In this document: positions 51,877 through 59,414 of the stretch, one piece after another
Position numbering within the stretch: position 1 is the stretch's first letter
Layout: every line of letters starts with the position of its first letter
NCBI RefSeq assembly: GCF_040412085.2
Contig: NZ_CP115921.1
Location: 1,612,001 to 1,676,000 of the forward strand
Direction: 5' to 3'
DNA length: 64,000 bases
Source of the DNA: Vibrio sp. CB1-14
GTDB lineage: Bacteria > Pseudomonadota > Gammaproteobacteria > Enterobacterales > Vibrionaceae
The notes under the pieces: model-generated
What the model was told of the DNA's origin: nothing
What the model saw: only the letters and a program-made list of their open reading frames with translations
Databases searched by the model: none
Position numbers and translations under genes: made by a program

Positions 51877-54800
51877 TTAGACCGTTGCTGTCACAATCCC
51901 ACGCTTTAGCGCTACGTAATATAAAATTGGGATAACCAATAGCGTCAATACTGTCGATACGAAGATACCGAATATCAAACTGATCGCGAGTCCATTGAAG
52001 ATAGGGTCATCTAGGATAAAGACAGCGCCAATCATCGCAGCCAGTGCGGTAAGCATAATTGGTTTGGCACGGACGATAGCCGATTCAATCACTGCCTCGC
52101 CCAATTCCATTCCATCTCTTAACTGATGATTAATAAAATCAACCAACAGTATCGAGTTTCGAACGATAATACCGGCGAGCGCTATCATGCCTATCATCGA
52201 TGTCGCTGTGAACTGAGCTCCCAATAGCGCATGACCCGGCATAACCCCAATGATGGTCAATGGAATCGGTGCCATGATAATGAGTGGCACTAAGTACGAT
52301 TTGAACTGCGCGACCACTAACAGATATATCAGTATCATGCCAACTGCATAGGCAATACCCATGTCGCGAAATGTCTCGTAAGTAATCGTCCATTCACCAT
52401 CCCAGAAGATCTCGATTCCTTTAAGCCCCGATGGTTGGTCAACAAAGTACTGCTCGGCATTCAGTCCATTGTCCGCTAGGCTCGATGAAATATCGGCCAT
52501 GCCATAAAGAGGACTATCTAAATCGCCAGTCATATCACCGACAACCATGATCATTGGAACAAGGTTTTTATGAACGATGTAATTATCCATCGCTTGCTCT
52601 CTTACCTTAATCAAATCCGCAAGAATATACTGCGTACCCGAAGCAGAGTTTATCTTCATATTCATCACCTGATCCAAACGCACCTTGGCACTCTCTTTGG
52701 CCTGGATTTGGATTGGGATCGGATATTTGCTCTGCTCACTATGCAAATAGCTCACCGGCTTACCACCTACCGCCGTCGCGAGTGAATCGACTATCGATGA
52801 GTAAGCCACGCCCAAGCGAGAGGCTTTACTGCGATCAATCACTACCTGCCATTTTTGATGTGCTTCTGGTAAGTAGAGATCGACATCCACAATGTCATCC
52901 GTCTCACGGAAAATCTCTCTAAGTTTCAACGCGGCTTGTTCACGAACTTCCTGAGTCGGCCCGTACACCTCTGCCAGAATTGGCGACCAAACTGGTGAGC
53001 CAGGTGGCACTTCAACTACCTTAACTTTGCCGCCAAATTTCTGTGCGATCTCTACAAGCTTTGGTCTCACTGCGACAGCGATCTCATGGCTCGAACGATC
53101 ACGCTCTGACTTATCCACCAAGTTAACTTGGATATCCCCTTTTTCTGGTGCTTGGCGCATGAAGTAGTGACGCACTAAGCCATTAAAGTTAATCGGCGCC
53201 GCAGTACCTGCATAGATCTGGTAGTCACTGACTTCTTCGACGTCATTCAAAGCATTACTAAGCTCAAACAACACGCGCTGCGTGCGCTCTAGTGAGTTGC
53301 CTTCAGGCATATCCAATATCACTTGGAACTCAGATTTATTGTCAAACGGCAGCATTTTCATGACCACGAGTTGCTGAACCGGCAGCCACATTGACACGGC
53401 AATCGCCACCAATACGCCCACACCTAACAACATGCGATTGCGTTTTTGTACTCGACTCACGACAAACGGTGACATCACCTTTTTAAAGAAAACCGATTGT
53501 TTACTGCTGACTGCTTCTTCGTGGGCATTGCCCTCTTTAAGCAGAATGCGCGCTAACCAAGGTGTTAACACAAACGCGATAATCAGCGAGATCAACATCC
53601 CCATCGAGGCATTGATCGGGATTGGGCTCATATACGGCCCCATTAACCCCGATACAAAGGCCATCGGTAACAAAGCTGCGATAACGGTTAATGTCGCCAA
53701 TATAGTAGGACCACCTACCTCATCAACGGCGCCCGGAATCAGCTCTGCCAGTTTCTGTTTACCTTTCACCATATGACGGTGAATATTTTCCACCACCACA
53801 ATGGCGTCATCGACCAAAATACCGATAGAGAAAATAAGCGCGAACAGAGAGACACGATTGAGAGTGAAGCCCCAAGCCCATGACGCAAACAGCGTCAGCA
53901 ACAAAGTGATAATAACTGCGACACCAACAACGACCGCTTCGCGTACGCCCATGGTCACGAGAACCAACAGAACTACCGCGCCCGTAGCAAAAGCAAGTTT
54001 ACCAATCAGCGTATTGGCTTTATCTGCCGCGGTCTGGCCGTAGTCGCGGGTGACATCTACTTGGATGGTATCCGGAATTAAAGTGCTTTCTAACTGACCT
54101 ATGCGTTCATCAACCGCTTTGGCGACATCTACTGCGTTCTCACCGCTTTTCTTCGCAATTGCAATAGTCACGGCTGGTTTAATGTCGCTCTTGTCACTTG
54201 TCCAAACAACTTGCGTTGGCGTATCTGTCCCTAAATTTATCTCGGCAATGTCTGCCAAATAAACAGGCTGACCATCATGCAAACCAACCACTAACTGTTT
54301 CACTTCATCGACGTTAGTAAGGAACTCGCCGATTTGTAGAGGTATGGATTGGTTGTCTTGCGTCAAGCTCAGCATAGGTGATGCAGAATTAGCATCTGGC
54401 AACATCTGATTAAGCGAATCAATAGTGACGCCGTAACCTGACATTTTCGCTGGGTCGAGCCTAACATCAACAATCGTTGGCTGACGACCAACCGTGTAGA
54501 TATCTCGCGTACCTGGAATGCGCTTTAGCTCGGTTTCAAGCCCGTGCGCAACACTGGTGATCTCTTGTAGCGTTGCCGAGTCCGATTTAGGTGATAAGGT
54601 CACGTTTACAATAGGCACATCTTCGATACCACGAGGCTTGATAATAGGCTGTCCGACGCCCATGTTCGCTGGCATCCAATCATTGTTGGAATAGAGCTTA
54701 TTGTATATCTTAACGACGGCTTCGTTTCTTGGAATCCCGACTTCGAATATCGCAACAATCATTGCGCCGCCAGGTTGAGAGAACGAGTATATTTTGTCGA

Positions 54801-55065
54801 TGCCGTTGATCTCCGAGATAATTTGCTCAGCCGGATTGGTGACTAAACTCTCGACTTCTCTAGGTGAGGCACCTGGAAACGGAATATAAACATCAGCAAA
54901 AGTGACATCAATTTGCGGCTCTTCTTCTTTGGGCGTAACAGCAATCGCCATCAAACCGAGCAACAATGCAACTAAAGCCAATAAAGGCGTCATTGCCGAT
55001 GACTGGAATGCGGCCGCGATGCGCCCCGAAATCCCCATCTTATCGTTTTCTGTATCGTGACTCAT
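51877..55065 (-). CDS. RND-family efflux transporter permease subunit
   Basis: The 1062-residue protein has the RND layout: a first membrane helix near residue 30, two large periplasmic loops, and about 12 helices. The EEPQIDVTFADVYIPFPGASPREVESLVTNPAE start (in part), GIEDVPIVNVTL, the FSIGILVDDAIVVVENIHRH motif with the proton-relay Asp pair in helix 4, and the GMIALAGIIVRNSILLVDFI repeat in the second half are all typical. It forms a tripartite pump with the adjacent adaptor; no outer-membrane TolC-like channel is encoded here. The substrate is unknown. It starts eight bases after the adaptor stop. Confidence 0.93.
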   Translation of the reverse strand: MSHDTENDKMGISGRIAAAFQSSAMTPLLALVALLLGLMAIAVTPKEEEPQIDVTFADVYIPFPGASPREVESLVTNPAEQIISEINGIDKIYSFSQPGGAMIVAIFEVGIPRNEAVVKIYNKLYSNNDWMPANMGVGQPIIKPRGIEDVPIVNVTLSPKSDSATLQEITSVAHGLETELKRIPGTRDIYTVGRQPTIVDVRLDPAKMSGYGVTIDSLNQMLPDANSASPMLSLTQDNQSIPLQIGEFLTNVDEVKQLVVGLHDGQPVYLADIAEINLGTDTPTQVVWTSDKSDIKPAVTIAIAKKSGENAVDVAKAVDERIGQLESTLIPDTIQVDVTRDYGQTAADKANTLIGKLAFATGAVVLLVLVTMGVREAVVVGVAVIITLLLTLFASWAWGFTLNRVSLFALIFSIGILVDDAIVVVENIHRHMVKGKQKLAELIPGAVDEVGGPTILATLTVIAALLPMAFVSGLMGPYMSPIPINASMGMLISLIIAFVLTPWLARILLKEGNAHEEAVSSKQSVFFKKVMSPFVVSRVQKRNRMLLGVGVLVAIAVSMWLPVQQLVVMKMLPFDNKSEFQVILDMPEGNSLERTQRVLFELSNALNDVEEVSDYQIYAGTAAPINFNGLVRHYFMRQAPEKGDIQVNLVDKSERDRSSHEIAVAVRPKLVEIAQKFGGKVKVVEVPPGSPVWSPILAEVYGPTQEVREQAALKLREIFRETDDIVDVDLYLPEAHQKWQVVIDRSKASRLGVAYSSIVDSLATAVGGKPVSYLHSEQSKYPIPIQIQAKESAKVRLDQVMNMKINSASGTQYILADLIKVREQAMDNYIVHKNLVPMIMVVGDMTGDLDSPLYGMADISSSLADNGLNAEQYFVDQPSGLKGIEIFWDGEWTITYETFRDMGIAYAVGMILIYLLVVAQFKSYLVPLIIMAPIPLTIIGVMPGHALLGAQFTATSMIGMIALAGIIVRNSILLVDFINHQLRDGMELGEAVIESAIVRAKPIMLTALAAMIGAVFILDDPIFNGLAISLIFGIFVSTVLTLLVIPILYYVALKRGIVTATV

Positions 55066-55073
55066 ACTGCCCC

Positions 55074-56078
55074 CTACTTCTCAGCCAAGAAGCTGACTAC
55101 ATCGGTGACGATCTCATCACCCACTTCTAGACCACTAAGTACTTCAAGTTGACCGTTACGCGATTGACCAACACGCACAGGATTCATTGTGACTTTTTCA
55201 CCTTCCAAACGATAAACAACACTCAACTCGCCACGGCGAATGACGGCTGATTCTGGAATTTCAATCGACGGTCTATCATCATAAGTAAAGGCGACCTTCA
55301 CCCACTCGCCTGGCAGTAAATTTTGTGGCTGCTCAAGAAGCTCAAGACGAAGGCGGAAAGCACGAGATTTTTCATGAGCGTAATTGAACAGTTTCGCCTC
55401 ATAAGGCTCAAGGATCTCTCCATTTAGAGTGGTTATAGAAAACTGACTGGCATCCTCTACCTTTTCGCGATAGCGCTGAGGGATTTCTGTTACCACTCGA
55501 AGCGGAGACAATGAAAAGCCAGTCATCAATTGGCTACCTGGTGCGACGGTTTCACCAAGTTCGACATGACGTTGAGTGACAACACCGGTATACGGAGCGC
55601 GTATGCTGGTGTAGCCCAATGATTCTTTGGCCTGCGCGACAGCCGCTTTCGCTTGCTTGACTTCGGCAACGGAAGAGCGCGCTTCAGCTTCTGCTGCATC
55701 TAAACGCTCGCGCGAAATTGCGCCCTTGGGAAACAGGTCGCGGTAGCGCTTCACTTGAGCCGTTGCTTTGATGTTTTGCGCATTGGCGCTGTTAAGCTGA
55801 GCCAACGCCGCATCCAGTGACGCAGATTGTTGCTCTGCGCTGATTTCCAGTAACACATCGCCTTGATTGACGATGTCATTCACATCAGCATTCACCGCCA
55901 CTATTCTTCCGGATGTTTGTGCCGAGAGCGTACCGCGATTCACGGCTTCTACTGTTGCGTCTAACTCAACAACGGAATCAATGTTGTTTACTTCAATAAT
56001 GGTGGTGTCATAAGCGCTTGCTGTTGCGCTGAATACTGCGCTAGCAATCACTGCCCACTTTAGAAAGCTGACTTTCAT
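55074..56078 (-). CDS. RND efflux periplasmic adaptor (membrane fusion protein)
   Basis: The 334-residue protein has a signal peptide (WAVIASAVFSATASA), no lipobox, and the adaptor layout of two lipoyl half-motifs around a helical hairpin. The first half-motif (GRIVAVNADVNDIVNQGDVLLEIS, in part) precedes the coiled coil (about residues 80-150), and the second contains GYTSIRAPYTGVVTQRHVELGETVAPGSQL (in part). A C-terminal beta-barrel follows. It is the first gene of the pump operon. Three palindromic boxes (56098-56164) lie in its promoter, two of them identical in pattern to one upstream of the persulfide reductase gene. Confidence 0.92.
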   Translation of the reverse strand: MKVSFLKWAVIASAVFSATASAYDTTIIEVNNIDSVVELDATVEAVNRGTLSAQTSGRIVAVNADVNDIVNQGDVLLEISAEQQSASLDAALAQLNSANAQNIKATAQVKRYRDLFPKGAISRERLDAAEAEARSSVAEVKQAKAAVAQAKESLGYTSIRAPYTGVVTQRHVELGETVAPGSQLMTGFSLSPLRVVTEIPQRYREKVEDASQFSITTLNGEILEPYEAKLFNYAHEKSRAFRLRLELLEQPQNLLPGEWVKVAFTYDDRPSIEIPESAVIRRGELSVVYRLEGEKVTMNPVRVGQSRNGQLEVLSGLEVGDEIVTDVVSFLAEK

Positions 56079-56097: not shown

Positions 56098-56113
56098 ATT
56101 AGTTAAATCTAAT
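56098..56113. promoter_or_regulatory. ATTAG-N6-CTAAT box 1, RND operon promoter
   Basis: ATTAGTTAAATCTAAT has perfect ATTAG and CTAAT arms, 20 bases upstream of the adaptor start codon. It is a candidate site for the ArsR-family regulator at 57267-57560. Confidence 0.6.
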
Positions 56114-56125
56114 ATAAACACATTC

Positions 56126-56141
56126 ATTAGCAATGTCTAAT
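56126..56141. promoter_or_regulatory. ATTAG-N6-CTAAT box 2, RND operon promoter
   Basis: ATTAGCAATGTCTAAT has perfect arms and lies 28 bases from box 1. Confidence 0.62.
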
Positions 56142-56148
56142 TCTTTTG

Positions 56149-56164
56149 TTTAGATTTTGCTAAA
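56149..56164. promoter_or_regulatory. variant box 3 (TTTAG-N6-CTAAA), RND operon promoter
   Basis: TTTAGATTTTGCTAAA is a palindrome of the same geometry with one symmetric base change. It lies 23 bases from box 2. Confidence 0.5.
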
Positions 56165-56214
56165 TTAAAGTACTGATGATGACTTCTTATGTGACTGGTT
56201 GAATTATAGGCAAT

Positions 56215-56243
56215 AAAAAAGCCCGGTTTTTCAACCGAGCTTT
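56215..56243 (-). terminator. terminator of the YeeE/YedE gene pair
   Basis: On the minus strand AGCTCGGTT-GAAA-AACCGGGCT, with one mismatch, is followed by a T run, 50 bases past the stop of the second gene. Confidence 0.75.
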
Positions 56244-56292
56244 CAAATTCTAATCTTAATATCAGAAAGTTAACTAGACGCCTAATGAAAGG

Positions 56293-56736
56293 CTATGACT
56301 GTTTGGCCATATTGACTTGCTTGTTCTTACCTAACAATACATCACCAATGAACATTCCTACCAACATGGCAAAAACAAAACCAACAATCCCCAGATTGCC
56401 ATTAGCGATAGAGGAAATGGCGGGGCCAGGACAAATACCTGCTATGCCCCAACCCAACCCAAATAGCGCTGACCCGCTTAGTAGTTGAACATCAAGTTTT
56501 TTGTTCTCAGACAGGCAAAACTGATCAGTACAAACTGGCTCAGCTTTACGACGAATAACAAGCCAATAGCTAGGCGCAAACACCAATAGCGCTCCACCCA
56601 TAACAAAAGCTAGGTCTGGCGACCATTGTCCGAAAATATCTAGAAATGCCATCACATTGGCAGGATCGCTCATGCCAGAAACAATCATACCCGCGCCAAA
56701 CAAAAAACCACTAATCAATGCAATCAATCGAAACAT
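56293..56736 (-). CDS. pmpB: YeeE/YedE-type sulfur transport protein, second half (PmpB/DUF6691-like)
   Basis: ATG 56736, after ATAGGAGATGACC, gives 147 residues. Four membrane segments carry GFLFGAGMIVSGMSDPANVMAFLD and the Cys motif GWGIAGICPGPAIS. A Cys pair lies in PVCTDQFCLS. Together with the preceding gene it forms a split YeeE/YedE (TsuA-like) channel for thiosulfate or a related sulfur compound. The two genes are nine bases apart. The symbol follows the PmpA/PmpB naming and is tentative. Confidence 0.83.
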   Translation of the reverse strand: MFRLIALISGFLFGAGMIVSGMSDPANVMAFLDIFGQWSPDLAFVMGGALLVFAPSYWLVIRRKAEPVCTDQFCLSENKKLDVQLLSGSALFGLGWGIAGICPGPAISSIANGNLGIVGFVFAMLVGMFIGDVLLGKNKQVNMAKQS

Positions 56737-56745
56737 GGTCATCTC

Positions 56746-57162
56746 CTATAATACGTGCAGCATAATGGTAGTGGTTGCCATCGCGACCGCCATGAAAGTC
56801 ATAGTCGCAGCGATTGAACGTTTAGAGAGACGCCCCATACCACAAATACCATGACCACTGGTACAACCGTTACCAAGCTTAGTGCCAATACCGACAAGTA
56901 AGCCTGCCACCAGTACTAGCGGGGTAGAAACCACCATAGCCACTGGTGCTATGTTTAGCGCTTTAGCTGAAACAACGCCACCTAAAATCATTCCAAGTAC
57001 GAACAATATACGCCAGCTTGTATCACCCTTACGGCCTTTATAGATACGACCAACAATACCGCTGATACCCGCAATTTTGCCATTGAACAACAGCAATAAC
57101 GTGGCCGATACGCCTAAAAGCATGCCGCCGAGCAAAGATGCCCAAGGAAATGTAAACTCCAT
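56746..57162 (-). CDS. pmpA: YeeE/YedE-type sulfur transport protein, first half (PmpA-like)
   Basis: The 138-residue protein has four membrane segments. It carries LGVSATLLLLFNGKIAGISGIVG and the conserved Cys motif GNGCTSGHGICGMGRLSKRS, the thiol-bearing signature of YeeE/YedE transporters. It lies downstream of an ArsR gene with the cysteine spacing of a persulfide sensor (105 bases between the ArsR stop and this start) and so is likely induced by sulfide or persulfide. A 10-bp inverted repeat lies in the gap. Confidence 0.85.
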   Translation of the reverse strand: MEFTFPWASLLGGMLLGVSATLLLLFNGKIAGISGIVGRIYKGRKGDTSWRILFVLGMILGGVVSAKALNIAPVAMVVSTPLVLVAGLLVGIGTKLGNGCTSGHGICGMGRLSKRSIAATMTFMAVAMATTTIMLHVL

Positions 57163-57201
57163 ACTTACCTCTTGAATTTCAAACTTAAAATTGATTTAAG
57201 T

Positions 57202-57230
57202 TGCAAAATTCATCCGAAAAATTTTGCAAG
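57202..57230. repeat. 10-bp perfect inverted repeat upstream of the pmpA-like gene
   Basis: TTGCAAAATT (57202-57211) and AATTTTGCAA (57221-57230) flank a 9-base spacer, 40 bases before the gene start. There is no T run, so an operator or RNA hairpin is more likely than a terminator. Confidence 0.5.
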
Positions 57231-57266
57231 TTAAACCAGCTACAGATAGAAAATTAAGTACGAGGC

Positions 57267-57560
57267 TTAGTGGCAGTAAAGATTATGAAGCTGCTGAATC
57301 AGTCCCACCACACGTTCATCTTTAAGCGCATAATAAACGTGTTGCGATTCTTTGCGAGATGTCACCAAATCGGCCTTCTTTAACACCGATAAATGCTGTG
57401 AGAATGCAGATTGGCTTAAATTCGAATTGGCTTGTAGTTGCCCAGCTCCCTGTTCACCTTCAACTAATTGGCACAACACAAACAAGCGATCTGGATGAGC
57501 GAGCGTCTTGAGTACTTCCGCTACGTCCACTGCGCGTTCTTTCATTTGCAGTAAGTCCAC
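57267..57560 (-). CDS. ArsR-family regulator of the persulfide-sensing (BigR/SqrR/YgaV-like) type
   Basis: The 97-residue protein starts with GTG 57560 (site GAGGTAACAAA). The winged helix shows LKTLAHPDRLFVLCQLVEGEQGAG, then SNLSQSAFSQHLSVLKKADLV and the wing SRKESQHVYYAL. Two Cys, Cys30 and Cys96 (LYCH), are 66 residues apart, exactly the spacing of the sensing pair in BigR (42/108), SqrR (41/107) and HlyU (38/104). The metal-binding ELCVCDL motif of ArsR is absent. It is divergent from the persulfide reductase gene and upstream of the YeeE/YedE pair. Confidence 0.88.
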   Translation of the reverse strand: MDLLQMKERAVDVAEVLKTLAHPDRLFVLCQLVEGEQGAGQLQANSNLSQSAFSQHLSVLKKADLVTSRKESQHVYYALKDERVVGLIQQLHNLYCH

Positions 57561-57613
57561 TTTGTTACCTCTGTGTGTTGATATGATGTCGTCATTATCT
57601 ACACACTCATTTA

Positions 57614-57629
57614 TTTAGTCAATGCTTAA
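57614..57629. promoter_or_regulatory. degenerate ATTAG-type box near the arsR start
   Basis: TTTAGTCAATGCTTAA keeps the TTTAG-N6 geometry, but its right arm deviates (CTTAA). It lies in the divergent promoter, 54 bases upstream of the arsR start codon. Confidence 0.3.
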
Positions 57630-57658
57630 TTAGTATTTCTATATTTAGATTAAAATAC

Positions 57659-57674
57659 ATTAGACAAAGCTAAT
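57659..57674. promoter_or_regulatory. ATTAG-N6-CTAAT box in the arsR/reductase promoter
   Basis: ATTAGACAAAGCTAAT has perfect arms identical to those of the two boxes in the RND promoter. It lies 79 bases upstream of the reductase start and 99 bases upstream of the regulator start. Confidence 0.62.
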
Positions 57675-57752
57675 TTTAGTCGTTATAGTGGCTCTCATTC
57701 ACGATTAACATGCATTTTGGATAAGCATCCAAGACAAGTAATGAGGTAAGGT

Positions 57753-59414
57753 ATGACTAAGATCGTAATTGTAGGTGGTGTTGCTGGTGGTGCTTCTGCT
57801 GCTGCTCGTGCGCGACGTTTAAGCGAAGACGCTGAAATTATCATGTTAGAGCGCGGTCCTTTTGTGTCGTTCGCGAACTGTGGTCTTCCTTACCACATTG
57901 GTGGTGATATTAAAGACCGCTCTAAGCTACTTTTGCAAACTCCAGAGAGCTTTCTAGCGCGTTTTAATGTTGATGTGCGCGTGATGAATGAAGTCGTATC
58001 AATCAACCGTGCCGACAAGACTGTCACCATTAAAAACCTAATTGATGCCAGCGAATACAATGAGTCTTATGACTTTTTGCTACTAAGCCCAGGTGCTGCG
58101 CCATTCATTCCAGCGATCGCCGGTATTGATAACCCTCTAACCTACTCGCTGCGCAATATCCCAGATATGGATCGCATCATTCAAACCATCCAAACCAACA
58201 AACCAAAGCACGCAACGGTTGTGGGCGGAGGATTTATCGGTTTAGAAATGATGGAGGCGTTCCACCAGCTTGGTATTGAAACCACTCTTATCGAAATGGC
58301 CGATCAAGTTATGACGCCAGTAGACAAAGAAATGGCGGGTTTTGCACATGCAGAGATCAAACAGCGCGGTATTGACCTCCGTTTGGGCGTTGCTCTGGAG
58401 TCAGTTGAGTTTATTCCGGAAGAAGACAATACTGGCAAGCTTGCGCTTACCCTCAATAATGGCGACACATTGAGTACTGAGCTGCTCATCATGTCGATCG
58501 GCGTTCGCCCAGAAACGAAGCTAGCACAAGAGGCGGGCTTACAGTTAGGTGAACTTGGCGGCATCTACACTGATAGCAGCATGCAAACCAGTGACCCTGC
58601 TATCTTTGCTGTAGGCGATGCTATTGAAGATACAGATTTTGTCACGGGCAAATCAGGGTTTGTTCCACTAGCGGGACCTGCCAACCGTCAAGGCCGCATG
58701 GCTGCGGACAACATGCTTGGCCGTTCTGAAACCTATCAAGGCACTCAAGGTACGTCGATAGTTAAGATCTTCGATCTCGCAGTAGCTTCAGTAGGTAAGA
58801 ACGAGAAGGTACTGAAACGTGAAGGTATCGCTTACGAAAAGGTCTACGTGCACACAGCTAGTCACGCCGGCTACTATCCTGGCGCAGAGATTGTATCTCT
58901 AAAAATGTTGTTTAGCCCTGAAACCGGCAAAATCTTAGGGGCGCAAGCCGCGGGTAAAGACGGTGTAGATAAGCGTATTGACGTACTGGCAGTCGCGCAG
59001 CGCGCAGGCATGACGGTTGAGCAGCTTCAACACCTGGAACTTACCTATGCGCCTCCATACGGAAGTGCTAAAGATGTCATTAACCAGGCTGCGTTTGTGG
59101 CGAATAACATCCTTAAAGGTGATGCAACGCCAATCCATTTCAATGAGATTGATAACCTAACGGAAGATCAGATCCTGTTGGACGTTCGCAACCCAGGCGA
59201 ACTGGAAAACGTTGGGTTTATTGAAGGTGCTATTAACATCCCTGTTGACCAACTACGTGGACGCATGAATGAGCTACCAAAAGACAAAGAGATCGTGATC
59301 TACTGTCAAGTAGGACTTCGTGGCAACGTTGCGTATCGTCAGCTTGTCAACAATGGTTTCAAAGCTCGAAACTTGATTGGTGGCTACCGCACCTACAAGT
59401 TTGCGCAAGCTTAA
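57753..59414 (+). CDS. CoA-disulfide/NADH-dependent persulfide reductase with rhodanese domain
   Basis: The 553-residue protein joins an FAD pyridine-nucleotide-disulfide oxidoreductase (about residues 1-445) to a rhodanese domain (about 465-553). Seen are the FAD motif VIVGGVAGGASAAARARR, the single-Cys active site FANCGLPY (Cys43, the CoADR hallmark), the NADH motif VVGGGFIGLEM, the FAD motif FAVGDAIE, and the rhodanese loop YCQVGLRG (Cys518). Shewanella Npsr and bacillary CoADR-Rhd share this fusion and reduce CoA- and glutathione-persulfides. It is divergent from the ArsR gene. Confidence 0.93.
   Translation: MTKIVIVGGVAGGASAAARARRLSEDAEIIMLERGPFVSFANCGLPYHIGGDIKDRSKLLLQTPESFLARFNVDVRVMNEVVSINRADKTVTIKNLIDASEYNESYDFLLLSPGAAPFIPAIAGIDNPLTYSLRNIPDMDRIIQTIQTNKPKHATVVGGGFIGLEMMEAFHQLGIETTLIEMADQVMTPVDKEMAGFAHAEIKQRGIDLRLGVALESVEFIPEEDNTGKLALTLNNGDTLSTELLIMSIGVRPETKLAQEAGLQLGELGGIYTDSSMQTSDPAIFAVGDAIEDTDFVTGKSGFVPLAGPANRQGRMAADNMLGRSETYQGTQGTSIVKIFDLAVASVGKNEKVLKREGIAYEKVYVHTASHAGYYPGAEIVSLKMLFSPETGKILGAQAAGKDGVDKRIDVLAVAQRAGMTVEQLQHLELTYAPPYGSAKDVINQAAFVANNILKGDATPIHFNEIDNLTEDQILLDVRNPGELENVGFIEGAINIPVDQLRGRMNELPKDKEIVIYCQVGLRGNVAYRQLVNNGFKARNLIGGYRTYKFAQA

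Follow-up and report, generated by a model that had tools for sequence, protein, structure and literature searches.

The stretch analysed here, referred to as the window, comprises 64,000 nucleotides of contig NZ_CP115921.1 of Vibrio sp. CB1-14 (positions 1,612,001 to 1,676,000). It contains a locus in which arsR, a gene for an ArsR-family regulator, is accompanied by genes for a persulfide-type reductase, a two-part transporter and a resistance-nodulation-division (RND) efflux pump, and in which a palindromic box, ATTAG-N6-CTAAT, recurs. On the minus strand, arsR (57267–57560, GTG start) is followed by the YeeE half (56746–57162) and the YedE half (56293–56742) of the transporter, and then by the periplasmic adaptor (55074–56078) and permease (51877–55065) of the pump. 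The coADR-rhodanese gene, encoding a coenzyme A (CoA)-disulfide/persulfide reductase with a C-terminal rhodanese domain (57753–59414, plus strand), is divergent from arsR. Exact boxes are found at 56098–56113 and 56126–56141 in the pump promoter and at 57659–57674 (ATTAGACAAAGCTAAT) between arsR and coADR; these are the only copies in the window. A TTTAG-N6-CTAAA copy (TTTAGATTTTGCTAAA) lies at 56149–56164 in the pump promoter. The first-pass annotation of this DNA, made from the letters alone, had placed these four sites correctly. An additional copy, absent from that annotation, lies over the arsR promoter (57614–57629, TTTAGTCAATGCTTAA) and differs at one position from the degenerate form of the box, WTTAG-N6-CTAAW. 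We consider it probable that ATTAG-N6-CTAAT is the operator of a Vibrio persulfide regulon, in which a BigR-like repressor would allow reductase, transporter and pump to be induced together by persulfide.

The regulator matches PF01022 (39 bits, cut-off 22), and its best relatives of solved structure are HlyU (3jth), BigR (3pqj) and YgaV (3cuo). Its two cysteines, Cys30 and Cys96, are 66 residues apart, which matches the spacing of Cys38 and Cys104 in HlyU. The reductase combines flavin reductase domains with a rhodanese domain (PF07992, PF02852 and PF00581), and its translation contains SFANCGLPY and IYCQVGLRG, which we take to be the Cys-bearing active loops of a CoADR-rhodanese persulfide reductase. 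It scored below the cut-off of the CoA-disulfide reductase family TIGR03385 (492.6 vs 578.8 bits). The YeeE half (Sulf_transp, PF04143, 35.5 bits) and its YedE partner (DUF6691, PF20398, 127 bits) form a pair that presumably defines a PmpAB-like transporter. The pump consists of a permease with an ACR_tran domain across nearly its full length (PF00873, 521 bits, residues 23–1051 of 1062), probably VexM-like (an inferred name), and an RND adaptor (TIGR01730, 208.7 bits, cut-off 94.9), probably VexL-like. The permease reached no cut-off among the NCBIfam RND multidrug permease subfamilies, the best being RND_permease_2 (485 vs 1250 bits). The nearest named relatives of the adaptor are from V. 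maritimus (94%) and V. variabilis (90%).

A consensus scan placed sigma70-like promoters at all three boxed sites. The pump promoter, TAGACA-17-TATATT (56111–56139, minus strand), has exact box 2 (56126–56141) over its −35 hexamer, and exact box 3 (56098–56113, ATTAGTTAAATCTAAT) runs into its −10 hexamer; the TTTAG-N6-CTAAA copy at 56149–56164 is box 1. The arsR promoter, TTGACT-17-GATAAT (57594–57622, minus strand), carries the one-mismatch box over its −35 hexamer, and the coADR promoter, TAGACA-17-TATAGT (57661–57689, plus strand), carries the exact box at the same place. Between the yedE half and the pump promoter lies a terminator-like hairpin with a T run (56217–56244, minus strand; −17.7 kcal/mol, z −5.54), which the consensus scan did not pick up. 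As this hairpin parts the yedE half from the pump promoter, the pump in this strain probably forms its own transcription unit. No box, even with one mismatch allowed, occurs in the region upstream of yeeE/yedE (57163–57266), and these two genes are most likely expressed from the arsR promoter.

Next, we asked how far the boxes exceed chance. Dinucleotide shuffles of the window gave 0.04 exact boxes on average, with a maximum of one, and none of 100 shuffles reached the three observed. The claim of the first-pass annotation that the three copies are not accidental is thus borne out; its chance rate (one per several hundred kb) was an overestimate, as the shuffles imply about one per 1.6 Mb. The genome of the strain (5,543,559 bases) holds five exact boxes, three of them in the window, as against ten matches to the reversed pattern that served as control, and 643 sites that depart from the degenerate box by at most one mismatch, as against 870 control sites. 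Across 148 Vibrio genomes, exact copies averaged 5.95 per genome and control copies 4.66. The motif is not common, yet a bare match means little genome-wide, and a regulon drawn from the bare motif was rejected on these counts. Because the genome counts are close to those of the reversed control, the case for the boxes rests on position and conservation rather than on rarity. The closeness to the control favours the reading that the shared boxes arose by chance or are structural repeats with no role in regulation. We regard this as exceedingly improbable, as the counts at orthologous promoters given below refute it unless descent was very recent, and divergent flanks speak against that.

To follow the boxes at orthologous genes, we used a first set of nine loci and a genus sample. 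One locus of the first set, from Acidobacteria (L040, 23% identity), was left out; the other eight, all from Vibrio, each have two or three boxes before the adaptor gene, and six of the seven that reach that far have the box between arsR and coADR. An alignment of 13 pump promoters, five taken from the first set and eight from the genus sample, shows boxes 2 and 3 in every sequence and box 1 in ten as an exact WTTAG-N6-CTAAW, while the flanks diverge; ATTAGACA is invariant across the alignment in varying surroundings. In the V. mediterranei type (L108), boxes 2 and 3 are spaced 38 instead of 28 bp, which is one extra helical turn. The genus sample of 148 genomes comprised 103 with 104 BigR-type loci (two in G035), 41 that formed a BigR-less set by score, and four reduced or incomplete genomes in neither set (G026, G053, G118 and G125). 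Of the 104 BigR-type loci, 100 have a degenerate box in the 300 bp preceding arsR, as against 0.37 loci in shuffles that treat each locus alone, although the genomes are related and the loci not independent; the strict form is found in 84 (0.09 expected). At least two degenerate boxes are present in 67 loci, and the commonest spacings between successive boxes are 45, 24 and 69 bp. Among the four loci without such a box, L108, L109 and L203 carry imperfect copies (one or two mismatches) at comparable positions, and in the fourth (L181) arsR is relocated, with the nearest box about 320 bp away. The boxes are therefore real rather than due to chance and are kept at orthologous promoters across the genus Vibrio, as conservation of the kind that the first-pass annotation had proposed to look for.

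Promoter geometry is likewise shared. Among the 101 loci with a box, 81 show a −35-like hexamer within the box furthest upstream, read on the coADR strand, and a −10-like hexamer follows after 16–18 bp; in 58 loci the latter is TATAGT at exactly 17 bp. The coADR gene is the neighbour in 90 of these 101 loci, and in 68 a box is overlapped by the top-ranking arsR promoter-like site. In the mechanism that we propose, reduced dimers of the BigR-like protein would bind the boxes over the coADR-rhodanese, arsR and pump promoters and block RNA polymerase, with yeeE/yedE read through behind the arsR promoter. When persulfides rise, sulfur would bridge Cys30 and Cys96 and the dimer would release the DNA, so that persulfide reductase, YeeE/YedE transporter and pump would be made together. 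Repression is the most likely mode. The boxes occupy positions typical of a repressor, and HlyU stops binding DNA once its two cysteines are bridged by persulfide (PMC10509353). Alternatively, the regulator could activate these promoters or relieve their silencing, much as HlyU activates hlyA by a proposed countering of H-NS (PMC10509353), in which case persulfide would switch the genes off. The region is AT-rich, which would suit such a role. We consider it very unlikely, as the boxes cover −35 and −10 hexamers, where repressors typically bind, whereas the hlyA site lies about 173 bp upstream of the start (PMC4330345).

The cysteine pair bears on the signal. Cys30 and Cys96 are present by position in 100 of the 104 BigR-type proteins; the four exceptions are L181, where both cysteines occur in a shifted reading start, L108 (no Cys96), L203 (neither cysteine) and the truncated L205. 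In L108 (the second copy of G035) and L203 (G142), where sensing cysteines are lost, the boxes before arsR have also decayed by one mismatch. A regulator that reads the boxes in response to a signal other than persulfide, for instance another thiol-reactive or a metal-organic stress, is unlikely in our estimate. Such a signal has a precedent in the relative YgaV, which is reported to be known from induction by tributyltin. However, the partners of the regulator are a persulfide-type reductase-rhodanese and YeeE/YedE, its cysteine pair is like that of persulfide sensors, and HlyU reacts in vitro with persulfide and not with peroxide (PMC10509353).

Boxes also occur where BigR was not found. In the 41 genomes of the BigR-less set, coADR is present in nine (E ≤ 1e-150), each with a box within 190 bp, and yeeE in 33 (E ≤ 1e-20), of which 30 loci were examined: 27 have a box within 700 bp and 25 within 130 bp. 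Two of the three misses have one-mismatch copies. The third is G112, which was placed in this set by score and has a divergent BigR/HlyU-like gene beside yeeE and no box. In 18 BigR-less genomes (L232–L249), arsR is missing and a double box with 24 bp spacing immediately precedes yeeE, a pattern like that expected from excision of the regulator gene behind its own promoter. The half-sites of this double box are 100% conserved, the N6 spacers 99% and the 8 bp linker 97%, compared to 55% for the preceding 60 bp, 71% for the following 50 bp and a mean pairwise identity of 81% (minimum 70%) for yeeE itself. Since conservation extends over the full 40 bp block, it may in part reflect the core promoter.

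HlyU, a second dithiol ArsR protein in the genome, probably reads the same boxes, because they are kept where HlyU but no BigR was found. HlyU-like genes were detected at E ≤ 1e-15 in 38 of the 41 BigR-less genomes, not counting G112. Seven of them (G014, G027, G070, G075, G078, G126 and G137) have HlyU as their sole ArsR relative at E ≤ 1e-5, and each carries a box upstream of yeeE (at −235 in G078). A third ArsR protein of about 35% identity, found in many genomes, is therefore unlikely as a general reader in the BigR-less genomes. Two genomes, G055 and G028, have neither a BigR or HlyU match at E ≤ 1e-15 nor coADR or yeeE at the cut-offs used; G055 has a pump of the window's type with no box within one mismatch, and the locus fetched from it (L204) has no arsR. 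The HlyU site at hlyA (PMC4330345) contains ATTAATTCAGACTAAA, which differs from the strict box at two positions and, read by eye, from the degenerate box at one. Of the 15 HlyU residues studied in that paper, nearly all BigR-like proteins share Arg33, Ser62, Gln63, His64, Leu65, Lys78, Gln81 and Tyr85, and most share Lys26 and Arg69, whereas Asn30, Arg32, Ala66, Trp67 and Arg70 differ, Arg70 being mostly replaced by Lys.

It is possible that HlyU alone, and not the neighbouring BigR-like protein, reads the boxes here, with BigR using other or accessory sites. The strain has its own HlyU, the hlyA operator is close to the degenerate box, and the boxes at coADR and yeeE persist beside HlyU in genomes where BigR was not found. 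We attach a low probability to this, since a box lies at arsR itself in nearly all BigR-type loci, as autoregulation predicts, and hlyU has no exact box nearby: none was found in 30 hlyU loci (L250–L279, among which L269 is the gene beside yeeE in G112), and 34 hlyU loci gave two one-mismatch hits, at −439 and −483. In addition, G102, which has BigR and no clear HlyU, retains its boxes, which means that BigR alone also suffices. The two regulators are distinct: in a midpoint-rooted FastTree phylogeny, 34 HlyU and 104 BigR-like proteins formed separate clades without mixing (support 1.0 and 0.876). The window's regulator falls outside the HlyU clade, and the strain's own HlyU (G000:C1:3001981–3002268) is a different gene. 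Operator sharing with HlyU, which is probable, is the most surprising part of these findings. More tentatively, and with somewhat more doubt than belief, HlyU could be at root a persulfide-responsive controller of vibrio sulfide detoxification that shares its operator with BigR; a VexLM-type pump would belong to the regulon and export a product of persulfide stress, and lineages losing BigR would have handed its operators to HlyU. If HlyU does act in sulfur-stress control, a single DNA box would tie together persulfide sensing, detoxification and virulence regulation.

The pump is a frequent partner of the regulator. An RND pump of one of two types is carried by 67 of the 104 BigR-type loci. 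Type A, with the adaptor first, is present in 40 loci, and its permease is 66–100% identical to that of the window over the best segment. Type B, with the permease first, is present in 27, and in the 16 of these that show a match it is about 36–43% identical to the window permease. In 66 of the 67 loci, arsR is followed on its own strand by the pump, which starts within 3.3 kb. The exception is L181 (G004), in which arsR lies behind the pump, yet three boxes still precede the adaptor. Boxes stand directly before the pump in eight loci (L101–L105, L107, L108 and L181). The presence of two different pumps in the same slot suggests a repeated need for a pump in the regulon, and the combined arrangement suggests that Vibrio may switch a pump on together with persulfide-detoxification genes. 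In L111, L117, L129 and other type B loci, the reversed-order RND pair occupies the slot of the type A pump. An nrdD-like gene follows in L111 and L129, and likewise lies near the pump in the window. In L114 (G136), arsR is followed directly by a type B pump as its sole partner, with no coADR or yeeE/yedE nearby.

A number of results weigh against the proposed regulon. No box lies between arsR and the pump in the other 59 of the 67 pump loci, where control would rest on readthrough from the arsR promoter, and 37 of the 104 BigR-type loci have neither pump type within the stretch fetched. As these 59 further loci have the pump after arsR without a box of its own, the link to the pump is old, and it is in this clade that the pump acquired a boxed promoter. 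The promoter-like sites in the window are scarcely above those in shuffles (1 vs 1.2 for the pump, 3 vs 1.7 for arsR/coADR). The regulator misses the cut-off of the NCBIfam BigR family NF040642 (93.4 vs 155 bits), which is why we name it BigR-like and not BigR proper. G021, which has BigR and no clear HlyU, has decayed boxes only; this would fit a need for HlyU in the upkeep of the boxes, as a single case. Furthermore, since boxes are kept where BigR was not found, the local ArsR protein is not uniquely tied to them. The first-pass annotation had this protein bind the boxes and one persulfide or sulfide signal control all three functions. Its idea of one operator type joining arsR, coADR-rhodanese and the RND pump stands, and at least one further protein besides the local ArsR probably reads the boxes.

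The type A pump is likely VexLM, which we take to be VCA0638–VCA0639. The assignment draws on G034 and G089, each of which has BigR and a type A pump on its smaller contig, and on the G089 adaptor, which is 96% identical to a V. mimicus protein. In both genomes the pump follows arsR without boxes of its own, unlike the window pump with its own boxed promoter. The location also agrees, as vexLM is on the small chromosome of V. cholerae (PMC10225521). In the available part of that paper, no compound tested was a substrate of VexLM and no regulator of its own is given for the pump. The regulon proposed here would supply a specific regulator and stimulus for this RND pump family, whose function could be sought under sulfide or persulfide stress.

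The locus resembles known BigR operons, namely bigR-blh of Xylella and Agrobacterium and yeeE-yedE-pdo2 of Acinetobacter baumannii, in that a dithiol ArsR repressor is combined with an enzyme of sulfur transfer or oxidation, and the A. baumannii operon shares YeeE/YedE with the window (PMC7315123, PMC5823870). It differs in having a CoA-disulfide/persulfide-type reductase-rhodanese and an RND pump with the same boxes, whereas those operons use a persulfide dioxygenase; the available parts of both papers make no mention of RND control. V. cholerae BigR is called uncharacterised in PMC10509353. Vibrio HlyU is alike in its cysteine spacing, in most DNA-contact residues, in its response to persulfide (PMC10509353) and in an operator one mismatch from WTTAG-N6-CTAAW; it differs in forming a separate clade and in being known as an activator of exotoxin genes. 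SqrR, SoxR, sHdrR and YgaV belong to the same ArsR subfamily, and such repressors act on targets that include RND pumps and YeeE-type transporters (PMC12423496, 2025), although the part of that paper available names no organism or operator for the RND case. A literature search combining RND efflux, persulfide, ArsR and promoter returned no paper, and we found none assigning RND control to BigR in Vibrio or placing HlyU at coADR, yeeE or pump promoters, as judged mostly by titles and the openings of abstracts. The coupling of an RND pump to persulfide stress had initially been called new or little described. It is not specific to this strain, given its breadth among the 104 loci, and the family link is in print; the operator evidence is new as far as we searched, and the locus is otherwise a variant of known persulfide-repressor operons.

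The two remaining exact boxes in the genome lie inside a coding frame (L001) and 338 bp before cydA. The box at −338 of cydA is present in three of eight clade genomes tested (the strain itself, G039 and G059) and absent from G044, G052, G035, G004 and G056 as well as from six other genomes searched. The gene cydA was not counted as a regulon member. No exact box precedes the second-copy cydA (cytochrome bd) of G044, G052, G035 and G042, and that of G147 has one at −75 (L338, G147:C1:1255885–1255900). Further box sites are present in G122, G147 and G144. Most of the first-copy cydA genes examined (L321–L333, except L325-type variants) have tandem palindromes of the forms ATTAGC-N4-GCTATA and ATTAGC-N4-GCTTAA about 150–185 bp upstream.

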